Below are positions 8,464 to 26,056 of a stretch of DNA of 26,812 nt, in pieces. The position numbers and the translations under genes were made by a program. The notes under the pieces are model-generated. The model worked only from the letters and a program-made list of their open reading frames with translations, did not search any database and was not told where the DNA came from. Positions within the stretch are counted from its first letter, which is position 1; every line of letters begins with the position of its first letter. Origin of the DNA: a virus; the IMG/VR virus record IMGVR_UViG_3300027861_000167, positions 1 through 26,812 of that record. One strand, given 5' to 3'.

Positions 8464-9522
8464 ATGACCAGCATTGAAACGACGACCCGACAGGCGCAGC
8501 GCAGCGGCGACATTGTCGCCGAGACCATGGCCCGCCTCCGCAGCGGCGTCGTCTTCTTCGCCGACCACAGCGCAGAGACCTACTTCGGCGCCATGCTCGC
8601 CGAGCTCCCACGCATGAACAGCCAGACCTTCCCCGAGTTCTTCGCCGAGCTCACCGCGAACTACAACGCCGCGCTCGCAGCTCGCAAGGCGACCGAGGCC
8701 GAGCAGGCTGACTTCGCTCGTCGCCGTCGCCTGTCGGCCGGCGAGTGCACCCGCTGCGCGAACCGTGGCAAGATCACCGTGCACGTCCCCAGCGGTAACG
8801 CCATGATCGACGACGGCATCCGCACCTGCCCGAGCTGCAACGGCAAGGCGCCCGAGGTCACCCTGCCGTTCACCGCCGAGGAGCTCGCCGCCCACGCGCA
8901 GAAGCGCGACCGCTGGGGCAACAGCTTCCGCACCGTGATCGAGGCGGCCGCCCTCGCCGAGGCCCGTGAGCTCTTCGCCGACTGCGTCAGCTCGGCCGAG
9001 GCCCTCGCCCGCAGCACCGGCCGCACGCTCGGCGCATTCACCGACGCGGCCCGCGTCACCAAGGGCGCCCGCGTCCGCTTCGACCGCGTGAAGCGCGCCC
9101 GCTTCGTGACCTTCGACGGGAGCGGCGACCGAGTCGCCGATGGCACCGAGGGCTGCGTGACCTGGGTGAGCGGAGACCGTGACCGCTTCGGCGTCACGAC
9201 CGACGATGGCCTGGTCTTCTTCACCGCCTCGAAGAACCTGGGCGGCGTCGCCCTGAACGGCTGGCAGCGCGTGCTCAAGCTGGACGCCGCGAGCCTCGCC
9301 AAGGTCGAGGCCGTCAAGGTCTACGAGACCACCGCGAGCGTCGAGCGCGGCGACAAGGTGACCGGCGGCACGAGCCGCGAGGGCGTCGAGAACACGAAGA
9401 GCCTGAAGGTCTTCTGGGTCGGCCCCGACCGCAAGAGCGGCCGGCAGCGTTTCGGCTGCGGCAAGACCGCGAAGGGCGGCCCCTTCTGGGGCTACTCCGA
9501 CGAGCTCAAGGGCGGCGCCTAG
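8464..9522 (+). CDS. Hypothetical zinc-ribbon protein (352 aa)
   Basis: No family is recognised. The N-terminal 90 residues are helical. A CxxC...CxxC zinc ribbon follows (C95, C98, C122, C125). Residues about 200-310 are rich in short strands (ARVRFDRVKRARFVTF, GCVTWVSG, RFGVTTDDGLVFF), suggesting one or two SH3-like barrels, and a final Gly/Lys-rich segment contains WVGPDRKSGRQRFGCG. A zinc ribbon with SH3-like strands suggests nucleic-acid contact (inference). It has a near copy of the DpdA-like gene's promoter and start context (CGGAGACAACCATGACC), so the two genes are probably co-regulated. The stop is followed by 82 bases before the next gene. Confidence 0.7.
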   Translation: MTSIETTTRQAQRSGDIVAETMARLRSGVVFFADHSAETYFGAMLAELPRMNSQTFPEFFAELTANYNAALAARKATEAEQADFARRRRLSAGECTRCANRGKITVHVPSGNAMIDDGIRTCPSCNGKAPEVTLPFTAEELAAHAQKRDRWGNSFRTVIEAAALAEARELFADCVSSAEALARSTGRTLGAFTDAARVTKGARVRFDRVKRARFVTFDGSGDRVADGTEGCVTWVSGDRDRFGVTTDDGLVFFTASKNLGGVALNGWQRVLKLDAASLAKVEAVKVYETTASVERGDKVTGGTSREGVENTKSLKVFWVGPDRKSGRQRFGCGKTAKGGPFWGYSDELKGGA

Positions 9523-22086: not shown

Positions 22087-23130
22087 ATGGCGAAGAAGAA
22101 ACGCAAGCCCGGCCAGATCAAGGCCGACGAGTACCTGGAGGCGGCCGACAATCTGCTGGCCGACTTCGAGGGAAGCATGGCCACCTCGCGCGACGAGGTG
22201 GCGCCGATCCGCCTGCAGCTCGCGGCCGCAGTTCGCGAGGCCGGCGCGGCCGCGCTCGCGAAGATGCAGACGGCGAAGGTCGGGCGCACCCGGATCCTCA
22301 TCCCGACCTCGAAGAACGCGAAGGCCGCCCTGGGATCCAGCGAGCGGATAAAGGAACGCTTCAGCAAGTTCGAGCTGAAGTGGCTGAGCAAGAGCGACGT
22401 GAAGCGCCTGGTGACTGACGGCTTGACCAAGGCCGAGGCCGGCCAGTTCTTCCGGCACAGCCAGCGGCTCGCTCGAAACTCGCGCATGTTTCTAGAGCGC
22501 CTCGGCGAGCTGGAGCCGAGTCTGCAGGAGGAGATCGACGCGACGCTGCGGCAGCTCGAAGATAACAAGCTGGACATCACGAAGCTCAACGTGAAGAGCT
22601 GGACGAATATGCAAGAGACGCTGATGCGAAACGTCAACGGCCGGCAGACCAGGGCGGCGACTGGCGACGCCGTGCAGACGTTCGACATCAACCGCAACCT
22701 GTTTAACCTCTCGCTGCTGGAGCACCCGAAGGGCGTGGCCCGAGAGATCCTGGCAAACTCTGCATCGCGCATGGCCGCCCGCTCGAAGAAGTCGAAGAGC
22801 AACCTGAAGAAGCAGGCCCTGGTCTTCGTCGGAGCTGGGCCTGACGCGGTCAGCAAGATGACCCCCGACAGCAGGACGGCCCGCGTGGTCTTCCGGCTCT
22901 TCACAGCCAAGCAGCTCGATGACCAGTTCGCGAAGCTGAACACCGGCCGGCAGAATACGAGCTCATGGCGCGGCCTCGGCCTGGGGCACAACAGCCCCGA
23001 GTGGTACATCCCCGTGCCGCCCGAGATCGAAGACGAGGTGCGCACCGAGATGCGCAAGCGCCGCTCTGACTTCCTCGCACGGCAGCGCGTCGGCGAGGAG
23101 AGCGTGAGCCGAAGCGAGGGCACCCGATGA
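22087..23130 (+). CDS. Hypothetical helical protein (347 aa), possible head-associated
   Basis: The protein is basic and mostly helical: N-terminal KKKRKPGQIKADEYLEAADNLLADFEG, central WLSKSDVKRLVTDGLTKAEAGQFFRHSQRLARNS, then a long acidic helix (LEPSLQEEIDATLRQLEDN). Later come LNVKSWTNMQETLMRNVNGR and a C-terminal block LGHNSPEWYIPVPPEIEDEVRTEMRKRR. Its place between portal and protease and its size recall minor head (MuF-like) proteins, but I see no MuF Cys/His signature. The name should stay hypothetical. Its start has a leaderless-type promoter. The stop overlaps the DUF4326 gene start (ATGA). Confidence 0.6.
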   Translation: MAKKKRKPGQIKADEYLEAADNLLADFEGSMATSRDEVAPIRLQLAAAVREAGAAALAKMQTAKVGRTRILIPTSKNAKAALGSSERIKERFSKFELKWLSKSDVKRLVTDGLTKAEAGQFFRHSQRLARNSRMFLERLGELEPSLQEEIDATLRQLEDNKLDITKLNVKSWTNMQETLMRNVNGRQTRAATGDAVQTFDINRNLFNLSLLEHPKGVAREILANSASRMAARSKKSKSNLKKQALVFVGAGPDAVSKMTPDSRTARVVFRLFTAKQLDDQFAKLNTGRQNTSSWRGLGLGHNSPEWYIPVPPEIEDEVRTEMRKRRSDFLARQRVGEESVSRSEGTR

Positions 23131-23483
23131 GGGCGACAGTGGTGAGCGTCAAGGCGAGCACGCTGGCCTCGGTCTACGTCGGCAGCGGCGCCGACGCCTT
23201 CGGCCGCCGACTCAGCGGCGCGAGGTGGGGCAACCCGTTCAGCCTCGAAGGGCACCCGCCGACCGAGGCGGCCCGCCTCTACTTCGAGCGCCTGCGCAGC
23301 TCGCCCGAGCTGGTCGAGCGCGTGCGCACCGAGCTCGCCGGCAAGCAGCTCGCGTGCGGCTGCGCTGGTCCATGCCACGGCCTGATCCTCGCGGCCCTGG
23401 CGAACGGCCGCGAGCTCGAAGAGATCGAGCACGAGTGGCGCGAGGCCGGCCTGCTCGCCGAGCAGCAGGAGCTCTTCGCGTGA
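23127..23483 (+). CDS. DUF4326-family protein (118 aa)
   Basis: Family landmarks are an N-terminal strand (TVVSVK...ASVYVGSG), SGARWGNPFSLEG (the conserved W-G-N-P-F), a helix (EAARLYFERL), and LACGCAGPCHGLILAALAN, matching the usual C-x-C-x-x-x-C-H-G-D/x-x-L segment. DUF4326 proteins are small cargo proteins frequent in phages; their function is unknown to me, and the Cys/His set may bind metal. ATG 23127 overlaps the preceding stop. The stop overlaps the HNH gene start (GTGA). Confidence 0.8.
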   Translation: MRATVVSVKASTLASVYVGSGADAFGRRLSGARWGNPFSLEGHPPTEAARLYFERLRSSPELVERVRTELAGKQLACGCAGPCHGLILAALANGRELEEIEHEWREAGLLAEQQELFA

Positions 23484-23860
23484 AGCGCACCGAGCTCAAG
23501 AGAACCGGCGGCCTGAAGAGAACCGGACAGCTCAAGAGGAAGACGCGGCTGAACCCCGTGAACCGCGAGCGGCGAGCGAGGCGAAGGGCCGAGCAGTTCA
23601 GCCACCAAGCGGCGAGGTGCAGGACGATGGACTGCTGCGCCTGCGGCCGGCCTGGACCGAGCGACCCGGCGCACGTCCGAAGCCGAGGAGCTGGCGGCCG
23701 AGACAAGGGCAACATCGTCCCGCTCTGTCGGCCCTGCCACAACCTGCAGCACGCGAAGGGCATGAAGACATTCGAGGCCGGGCTGAAGGGCGTTAGCCTG
23801 CTGGCCGTCGCGTGGTCTATCGCGGCGCAGCTCGAAGCCGAGGGCGTGACGTGGGAGTAG
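23480..23860 (+). CDS. HNH endonuclease-like protein (126 aa)
   Basis: The N-terminal 45 residues are Lys/Arg-rich with LKRTGxLKR repeats, typical of small phage HNH proteins. Then come CCACGRPGPSDPAHVRSRGAGG and NIVPLCRPCHNLQHAKG: two zinc-binding CxxC pairs and the H...N...H core of the fold (AH as general-base region, N and H in CHNLQH). Such nucleases can nick or cut DNA in packaging, recombination or homing; here it is small, single-domain and sits in an accessory cluster. GTG 23480 overlaps the DUF4326 stop. Confidence 0.8.
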   Translation: MKRTELKRTGGLKRTGQLKRKTRLNPVNRERRARRRAEQFSHQAARCRTMDCCACGRPGPSDPAHVRSRGAGGRDKGNIVPLCRPCHNLQHAKGMKTFEAGLKGVSLLAVAWSIAAQLEAEGVTWE

Positions 23861-24069
23861 TCCGCGCGGCCCGAGCCTACGGCTGCGTGCACCGTGGCCC
23901 TGTCATCGCGAGAGTCGAGTGCACCCGCCCAGGCTGACGCGGCCGGAAGATTCGGGTGAAGGTCTTCACCTGCGGCAAGCTCCTCACCTCGTGCACGTTC
24001 AAGCCCCAGGCCGGGCACTCGACCTGCGAGAGCTGCCCTCACCAAGAGGCACCGAGCTCGGCGAAGTGA
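23851..24069 (+). CDS. Small zinc-ribbon protein interrupted by an in-frame TGA (broken or recoded)
   Basis: From GTG 23851, which overlaps the HNH gene end, the frame reads YGCVHRGPVIARVECTRPG, TGA (23935-23937), RGRKIRVKVFTCGKLLTSC, then HSTCESCPHQ to TGA 24067-24069; 72 residues counting the TGA. I recognise the layout C-x-H-R-G...C-x(n)-C-x-G...V-K-V-F-x-C...C-x-x-C from a small Cys-rich phage protein family. The TGA falls where that pattern expects the second Cys of the first pair. Sequence on both sides keeps coding character. Explanations: a TGC-to-TGA nonsense mutation, a sequencing error, or decoding as selenocysteine, for which a SECIS-like hairpin lies at 23953-23972. I cannot choose between them from sequence alone. 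Confidence 0.5.
23953..23972 (+). other. SECIS-like hairpin downstream of an in-frame TGA
   Basis: CGGGTGA (23953-23959) pairs with TCACCTG (23966-23972, one G-U) around loop AGGTCT. The loop begins 22 bases after TGA 23935-23937. E. coli fdhF SECIS, as I recall it, has the same AGGUCU loop on a G/C stem 17 bases after its UGA. The bulged U of the fdhF stem is absent here. The hairpin could be an accident of codons for V-K-V-F-T. Confidence 0.35.
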
Positions 24070-24087
24070 GGTAGATGGTCGGCCCGT

Positions 24088-24097
24088 CGTGTATGCT
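24088..24097 (+). promoter_or_regulatory. CGTGTATGCT promoter module, copy 2
   Basis: Identical ten bases to 16931-16940, again exactly 29 bases before an ATG and with AGGAGG in the leader. TATGCT is the likely -10 box. No -35 consensus is visible. Confidence 0.5.
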
Positions 24098-24126
24098 CCC
24101 AGGGGACAAACCCCAGGAGGGCACCC

Positions 24127-24495
24127 ATGGGAACGATCACCTACGCACGCGATAAGAACCCAGCCACCAACAGCACCGGCATCGCTACGAGCGGCGAGGC
24201 GCGTGAGGATCCGAACGCCCTGGTGGCAATCGCGGCCGGCGCCGGCAGCTTCTACGAGCTGGCCATCAGCGGCGACGCCGACCCATCTGGTGGCGCCGCC
24301 ATCGTGGAGCTCTTCAGGATCAAGGCGACGCCGACCCTTGGCGCAACCGACCCAGGCCCCATCGGCCTCACCCTTGAGATCACACCCGTCCTTGGCGACG
24401 GAAGCGACGGCACCCCCTTCACCGTCCAGCAGCTCGTGCACCCGCAGACCATGAGCGCCTGGCAGACGGCCGCCGGCTTCCCCCCGGTCGCTTAG
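24127..24495 (+). CDS. Probable small structural protein (122 aa)
   Basis: The product is strand-rich and Gly/Ala/Thr-heavy: GTITYARDKNPATNSTG, ALVAIAAGAGSFYELAISGD, AAIVELFRIKATPTLG, IGLTLEITPVLGDG, PFTVQQLVH, with no Cys or long helices. A beta-sandwich decoration or fiber-type subunit is plausible. It shares its promoter module and leader spacing with the probable structural gene at 16970, suggesting both are made late and abundantly. There is no direct family recognition. CAGGAGGG lies upstream of ATG 24127. Confidence 0.6.
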   Translation: MGTITYARDKNPATNSTGIATSGEAREDPNALVAIAAGAGSFYELAISGDADPSGGAAIVELFRIKATPTLGATDPGPIGLTLEITPVLGDGSDGTPFTVQQLVHPQTMSAWQTAAGFPPVA

Positions 24496-24502
24496 TTCCT
24501 CC

Positions 24503-26056
24503 GTGCCGCTCGCGGTCAGATTCAGAAAAGGCAAGCACCGCCTGGTCGAGCTCGGCACGGGCGGCGTTGCACTGGGCGCGAACGGCAAGCCGCTCGACCA
24601 GGGCGGCGGCAAGGGCGAAGGCGAGCGGAAGCGCCTGGCTAAGCAGGCGACGGCTGTGAACCTCAGCAAGATGGAAGAGGAGCAGCGCATCGTCGAGGCG
24701 CAGCGCGAGCACGCGAAGAACGTGCGGGCTGTGCTCGGCAGGAGCTCGAAGAGGGCAAGCATGAAGGAAGACGCGCTGCCAGTCCTGAAGCTGGCCGGGA
24801 TCGGCTACGGCATCCAGCTCGCCGAGGCCGGCATGCCTGCGGCCCTCGTGGTCGAGAAGCCAGACGACTACGCCGGCAAGGAGTTCCGCTACGCCTCTGG
24901 CGACGGCTTCCGCTCGGTGAGGCTGGGCGAGGCGGCCGGCCCATACCGGAACCTGATGAGCCTGCCGCCTCACGTACTCCACGGCCTCGACTCGGCCAGG
25001 CTGCGCGAGCTCGGCGAGTCTCGCGAGCTCTACCTGGTGGAGCTCACCGAGTCGGCGCTGCTCAAGGAAGACGACGACGGCCCGGTGGTCGAGGTCGCCG
25101 AGCGGCTTCGCGGCCGAGGGATCGGGAAGCGCATGGGCGCGAAGCTATACGTGCACTTCAGCGCACTCACCGAGGCCGACACCCAGGCGCTCAATCCGAT
25201 CATGCCCGAGGGCTTCGAGTGGAACGTGGTGAAGCTGCACGAAGACACGGGCGCGGCGACGTTCATCAACAGCCCCGACTTCGACACGGCCGACGAGCCG
25301 GTGGTGGGCGACTCCATCCTGGTCAAGCCAGGCGGCGAGCTCCGCGAGATGAAGGCCGGCGATGATCCGATGATCTACCACCATAAATGGCAGTTCGTCG
25401 AGGAGACCTACGAGGGCTTTAGCGTCGAGGAGAGCAAGGCGAGGTCGGCGAAGTGGGAGGCCCTCGAAGACGTTGACCGCAGCCGGATCGGCAAGCGATC
25501 CTTCTGGCGCGAGACCGTCGTGCCTCGACTGCGCGAGGCCGTCGAGGTGCTCACCGACGCCGACCGCGAGCTGGTCGCGAAGGCCATGGGTCACCGCACC
25601 GCCATCGCCAGGAAGGGGCCGAGCGTCCCGCTGAGGTTTTACCAGGAGCACGGGCTGCTCGAAGGCGAGGTGCTCGACTACGGTGGCGGCCAAGACGTGC
25701 ACGACTTCGCGCGGTGGGATCCTCACTATGCGCCCGACCCTGCCCCGCTGCTCAAACGATACGACACCGTGATGTGCAACTACGTGCTGAACGTCACACC
25801 CATCGAGAGCCTGCGCAGCCAGGTGCTCTCGGCGCTGCGCGGCCTGCTGAAGGACGGCGGCCGCTGTCTCGTGAGCTGCTGGCAAAAGCAGAAGGAAGAC
25901 GTGCAGACCAGCTCAAGCTTCCAGTCCGGATGGGACGCTGCACGGTGGCAGGAGTTCTTCAAGGCGAACGGCTGGGAGGCCGAGCGGCTGAAGACGAGCG
26001 CCGTGATGGCCTGGTCACTGCGGCCGGCCGGTGAGGAAGCGGTGAGGGCAAAGTGA
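24503..26056 (+). CDS. Fusion protein with C-terminal phosphorothioation-type SAM methyltransferase domain
   Basis: Residues about 365-505 form a methyltransferase: GPSVPLRFYQEHGLL, motif I VLDYGGGQD (390-398), RWDPHYAPDP (404-413), motif IV-like YDTVMCNYVLNV (420-431) and GGRCLVSCW. The order matches the methyltransferase family associated with DNA phosphorothioation (dnd) loci. Residues about 215-335 (YVHFSALTEA, EGFEWNVVKL, FINSPDFDTADEPVVGDS, IYHHKWQFV, EESKARS) form a second conserved block that I recall accompanying this domain in phages. Residues 1-210 include a charged coiled coil. GTG 24503 follows the previous stop by seven bases but lacks a ribosome site; ATG 24671 or 24761 are alternatives. 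Substrate unknown: DNA, protein or RNA. Confidence 0.65.
   Translation: MPLAVRFRKGKHRLVELGTGGVALGANGKPLDQGGGKGEGERKRLAKQATAVNLSKMEEEQRIVEAQREHAKNVRAVLGRSSKRASMKEDALPVLKLAGIGYGIQLAEAGMPAALVVEKPDDYAGKEFRYASGDGFRSVRLGEAAGPYRNLMSLPPHVLHGLDSARLRELGESRELYLVELTESALLKEDDDGPVVEVAERLRGRGIGKRMGAKLYVHFSALTEADTQALNPIMPEGFEWNVVKLHEDTGAATFINSPDFDTADEPVVGDSILVKPGGELREMKAGDDPMIYHHKWQFVEETYEGFSVEESKARSAKWEALEDVDRSRIGKRSFWRETVVPRLREAVEVLTDADRELVAKAMGHRTAIARKGPSVPLRFYQEHGLLEGEVLDYGGGQDVHDFARWDPHYAPDPAPLLKRYDTVMCNYVLNVTPIESLRSQVLSALRGLLKDGGRCLVSCWQKQKEDVQTSSSFQSGWDAARWQEFFKANGWEAERLKTSAVMAWSLRPAGEEAVRAK

Follow-up and report, generated by a model that had tools for sequence, protein, structure and literature searches.

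A small Cys-rich gene interrupted by TGA

The window, that is, the whole 26,812-base stretch of DNA analysed here, is a virus record. At positions 23851–24069 of its plus strand lies a small gene for a Cys-rich protein, which starts with GTG 7 nt downstream of a Shine-Dalgarno-like GAGG (23840–23843, plus strand) within CGAGGGCGTGACGTGG. Translation bore out the preliminary description of this DNA in that the frame from GTG 23851 to 24069 is open except at one codon, the sole internal stop being a TGA at 23935–23937 (plus strand). The translation reads VGVVRAARAYGCVHRGPVIARVECTRPG up to this TGA and RGRKIRVKVFTCGKLLTSCTFKPQAGHSTCESCPHQEAPSSAK from there to the terminal stop, also TGA, and amounts to 72 aa when the TGA is read through. 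The protein had no family match in the libraries searched.

The start of the Cys-rich gene is overlapped by the 3′ end of an HNH-nuclease-like gene (23483–23860, plus strand; PF01844, E 0.00086, and PF16784, E 0.0006, both below the Pfam cut-off). Two genes upstream of the TGA-containing gene, positions 23127–23483 encode a DUF4326 protein (PF14216, E 8e-10). On the other side lies a plus-strand gene of 122 aa with no assigned function (24127–24495), and then a 517-aa gene (24503–26056) with a weak C-terminal methyltransferase match (PF08242, below cut-off).

Much of this gene order is common to a related phage contig of 86.7 kb, IMGVR_UViG_3300005663_000003 (hereafter the relative), whose terminase, portal and major capsid proteins are 62%, about 70% and 76% identical to those of the window. 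A homolog of the HNH-nuclease-like gene lies upstream in the relative, and the 122-aa gene has a counterpart of 42% identity in the same order. A second copy of this last gene, 36% identical, is found on the minus strand of the relative far from the head genes (G011:C1:80009-80356). The match to the relative's counterpart of the 517-aa gene covers only residues 64–192, within an open frame of 254 aa, and this gene appears mosaic. Between the Cys-rich gene and its downstream neighbor, a promoter-like intergenic stretch is strongly conserved (window 24060–24126; about 1674–1740 of L019 in the relative), with the pattern AAGTGAGG.AGATGG..GGCCCGT..TGTATGCTCCC. It is followed, just before the ribosome-binding site, by a short stem with the arms GGGG/CCCC in the window and GGAGA/TCTCC in the relative, a difference that resembles compensatory change.

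Conservation of the TGA and of coding on both sides

Two IMG/VR contigs from other metagenome assemblies overlap the window at 99.8–99.9% identity, with mismatches at 13 of 7962 and 4 of 6906 bases. Both are identical to the window over the whole Cys-rich gene, TGA included (contigs L002 and L003). Since these near-identical contigs from other assemblies carry the same TGA, a sequencing error is unlikely.

The Cys-rich homolog of the relative is far more diverged, at 42% (local) to 48% (global) amino acid identity to the window protein, with third codon positions differing at 34 of 66 sites. It contains a single interruption, a TGA, at exactly the same codon. The context is CTRPG-TGA-RGRKIRVKVFTCGKL in the window and CSKPG-TGA-RRGFQVKVFACTKL in the relative; farther downstream the two proteins read VKVFTC and VKVFAC, respectively. 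Both homologs have kept PG before the TGA, R after it, and VKVF, CPH and SSAK, and the conserved positions of the protein are C12, C24, U29 (the TGA), C41, C59 and C62. At the nucleotide level CCAGGC-TGA-CG is identical, as is CGAGGGCGTGACGTGG at the start of the gene, with GAGG 7 nt before GTG, though the upstream genes differ there. A check proposed at the outset was to look for this TGA in related phages, and the diverged relative has retained it without decay, along with an open frame before and after it, the pattern of Cys residues and a downstream hairpin; the TGA is thereby conserved between two independent lineages, the full extent of this comparison. A second check, the identity of this codon in homologs, was answered in part: the relative has TGA, but no homolog with TGC or TGT was found.

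To score coding potential, we used codon usage trained on each phage's own genes (standard deviation for real genes about 0.25). Downstream of the TGA, frame 0 was the highest-scoring plus-strand frame in both phages, at 0.33 bits/codon in the window and 0.16 in the relative, compared with 0.49 and 0.47 for real genes and −0.2 to −0.9 for the other plus-strand frames at the site. In the relative, one minus-strand frame scored slightly above frame 0 after the TGA (0.22). GC3 after the TGA was 0.91 in the window and 0.85 in the relative. Differences between the two sequences fell on codon positions 1, 2 and 3 in 27, 23 and 34 of 66 codons (0.41/0.35/0.52), similar to the distribution in a neighboring gene that has diverged equally far (0.41/0.41/0.55). 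When every TGA of the window was screened without bias for coding in the same frame before and after it, this site and one pair in which a stop is followed by a new start were the only results. The TGA of the relative fell below the cut-off of that scan, the 26 codons before it scoring only −0.1.

Elsewhere in these phages TGA is an ordinary stop, ending 10 of 22 genes in the window and 8 of 15 in the relative. Because so many genes terminate in TGA, the code is not reassigned, and a reading of TGA as Trp throughout was ruled out.

We found no Cys-containing homolog in viral contigs, species genomes, phage and plasmid records, Pfam, PHROGs or NCBIfam, and no homolog of any kind in those collections beyond the two TGA lineages, within the limited reach of such searches for a 72-aa protein. 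A DNA-pattern scan of 2.9 million viral contigs, which allowed TGA, TGC or TGT at the codon, returned the same two lineages only, all other matches being judged chance. Weak tblastn matches in Klebsiella, Streptomyces and Sinorhizobium records (E about 1–10) were likewise judged chance. Among 85k species genomes, no prophage copy with the Cys-rich pair or the portal pair was detected. Terminase, portal and major capsid protein pointed to two further contigs as kin; one (L034) ends before the Cys-rich gene, and in the other (L036) no Cys-rich homolog was found. An AlphaFold model built from the two sequences had a pLDDT of 49.7, too poor for use.

A hairpin downstream of the TGA

A SECIS-like hairpin was confirmed at 23953–23972 (plus strand), where a perfect 8-bp stem encloses the loop GGUC, or AGGUCU if the closing A-U pair is counted as open. 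In the window it reads CGGGUGAA-GGUC-UUCACCUG, with the first loop base 24 nt after the TGA and a local ΔG of about −9.3 kcal/mol; the relative folds the equivalent CAGGUGAA-GGUC-UUCGCCUG, with the loop starting 21 nt after the TGA. The preliminary description had likened the AGGTCT loop to that of E. coli fdhF (formate dehydrogenase H), and we verified and refolded the fdhF element, which has the same GGUC. The resemblance includes an in-frame UGA-C followed by a hairpin in the coding region with the loop A-GGUC-U, and GGUC starts 19 nt after the UGA in fdhF compared to 24 nt in the window and 21 nt in the relative. In contrast, the fdhF stem has a bulged U, and folding placed no such bulge in either phage stem, as had been noted for the window. 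Compared with an fdhF-type SECIS, defined by bulged U plus GGUC loop, the phage hairpins thus have the identical loop and lack the bulge. The phage-encoded protein also differs from the fdhF product in being 72 aa long, of no known family and no formate dehydrogenase. Rfam yielded no relevant match for the phage sequences.

Published constraints on bacterial SECIS (bSECIS) elements are a loop of 3–9 nt with G in the first two loop bases, a stem of 4–16 bp and a spacing of 16–37 nt (PMC13188914, Fig. 2), with an MFE at or below −7.5 (PMC13188914). The hairpin lies within every one of these constraints in both phages. The minimal bSECIS model discriminates poorly in these GC-rich phages, fitting 69% of all TGAs. 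A stem of at least 8 bp with GG at the loop start is found at 1.1% of the 2890 TGA triplets of the two phage sequences, and such a stem with a GGT loop at 0.24%. The hairpin is also the best-conserved 20-nt stretch of the Cys-rich gene, 18 of 20 nt being identical between window and relative; with shuffled codons, the gene contained a 20-nt stretch conserved this well in a quarter of cases.

The overlap of the hairpin with the codons for V-K-V-F-T had been raised as an objection, and it carries weight. Given the encoded protein and the codon usage of the phage, an 8-bp hairpin with a GG loop is expected with P of about 0.14 in the window and 0.12 in the relative, i.e., the VKVF[TA]C codons by themselves go far toward producing it. 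Because of these values the hairpin counts for much less than the conserved TGA, which is strong evidence; the hairpin supports selenocysteine without deciding for it.

Selenocysteine and the competing explanations

The preliminary description had taken a nonsense mutation or read error as the simpler reading. It is the simplest a priori, and the gene is without known function, but the TGA occurs in three assemblies and in a relative of about 45% amino acid identity, and the sequence after it is open, codon-biased and free of any other lesion in both phages. A nonsense mutation, pseudogene or sequencing error is therefore largely refuted by the relative, and we give it very little credence; the conserved TGA, the downstream coding and the use of TGA as an ordinary stop elsewhere speak against a nonsense mutation as well as against a reassigned code. 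We consider it similarly improbable that the true coding sequence lies on the minus strand or uses a different frame, which would make the TGA irrelevant. In the same codon register, the minus strand too has an open frame in each phage (507 and 137 codons), with 47% identity on alignment, but the codon score of that frame is negative in both, substitutions concentrate at plus-strand third positions as in the neighboring plus-strand genes, the start with its ribosome-binding site is on the plus strand, and so are all neighbors.

Two explanations that accept the coding on both sides of the TGA deserve more attention. The TGA could be the true stop of a 28-aa peptide, with reinitiation at GTG 23956 producing a 37-aa protein beginning MKVFTC. 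A GTG is located at the homologous place in both phages, the short distance from stop to start favors coupling, and GGAAG precedes GTG 23956 in the window. The relative's GTG has no SD-like sequence upstream (CGGCTTCCAG-GTG), however, and in both phages the GTG is buried in the stable stem of the hairpin. Moreover, the phase across the TGA is maintained although a codon has been gained or lost between TGA and GTG, and the conserved Cys pattern extends across the TGA. We hold a split gene to be a possible but less likely reading. We regard as slightly less likely still a programmed readthrough without selenocysteine, in which a near-cognate tRNA (e.g., that for Trp) at a leaky UGA-C would produce a minor extended protein. 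In E. coli a UGA is a weak stop when C comes next, the CCAGGC-TGA-CG context is identical in both phages, and the downstream coding is conserved. On the other hand, the placement of the site among conserved Cys residues and the bSECIS-matching hairpin are explained more specifically by selenocysteine. We therefore rank selenocysteine ahead of a split gene, followed by readthrough with another amino acid, a decayed gene or error and a different frame both being unlikely.

Selenocysteine is, by a modest preference, our best explanation of the conserved TGA. The suggestion of a phage selenoprotein draws strength from the conserved TGA, the frame, the Cys pattern and the hairpin; selenium incorporation is something we infer from these patterns. 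According to this explanation, UGA 23935 would be decoded as selenocysteine (Sec) instead of stop, host SelB with Sec-tRNASec being recruited by the hairpin and its loop 24 nt past the UGA; some ribosomes would terminate at the UGA to release a 28-aa peptide. The predicted product has 72 aa, is rich in Cys, probably binds metal and would carry selenocysteine as residue 29. The preliminary description had expected a zinc-binding Cys at the TGA, and a single feature, the C-x4-U spacing, is what suggests one. Sec29 may form a C-x4-U knuckle with Cys24, replacing a knuckle Cys, with C12, C41, C59 and C62 as the other conserved Cys residues. Its role could be that of a metal ligand or of a redox-active selenol. 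We put at about even the chance that these genes represent a new phage-specific selenoprotein family, small, Cys/Sec-rich and possibly zinc-ribbon-like, encoded in tailed phages amid genes for head and packaging functions and relying on host SelB and tRNA-Sec through a SECIS in the coding region.

Bacteria, archaea, eukaryotes and a small number of animal viruses are known to have selenoproteins. Sec proteins that are small and Cys-rich or have Sec as a metal ligand have been predicted in bacteria, namely, the UXX-star family, SaoB and SaoC; compared by description, they resemble the candidate in being small proteins for which Sec has been suggested as a possible ligand for metal (PMC13188914). 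The text of that review names no phage or virus. Some huge phages carry tRNA-Sec genes, and some phages have been suggested to be able to make Sec proteins (PMC10747093). In searchable open-access papers, whose coverage is incomplete, we found these tRNA-Sec genes of huge phages and no description of a phage selenoprotein gene. In the passages of PMC10747093 consulted, tRNA genes and no selenoprotein gene are reported, whereas the phages studied here have a candidate gene and no convincing tRNA-Sec. If the selenocysteine reading is correct, phages exploit the 21st amino acid and standard annotation truncates such genes, so that a Sec-aware search would be needed for phage genomes. It would also suggest that this uncultured phage group has a Sec-decoding host, and would tie phage gene expression to the selenium status of the host.

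In the phage contigs, which may be incomplete, we found no selB and no selC/tRNA-Sec match over the cut-off. Sec decoding would for this reason depend on the host. From the conserved TGA, with coding sequence and a hairpin right behind it, both phages probably use host selenocysteine machinery. A match to tRNA-Sec of 18.1 bits in the relative (8979–9062) was rejected, as it does not fold as tRNA-Sec. Positions 8979–9120 of L020 in the relative contain two stretches resembling the 3′ halves of tRNAs (GGGTTCGACTCCCG and CGGGTTCGAGTCCCGGGCGTCCGC). They lie just upstream of an intact tRNA-Met (9198–9272) and are possibly tRNA-gene remnants or an attachment site.
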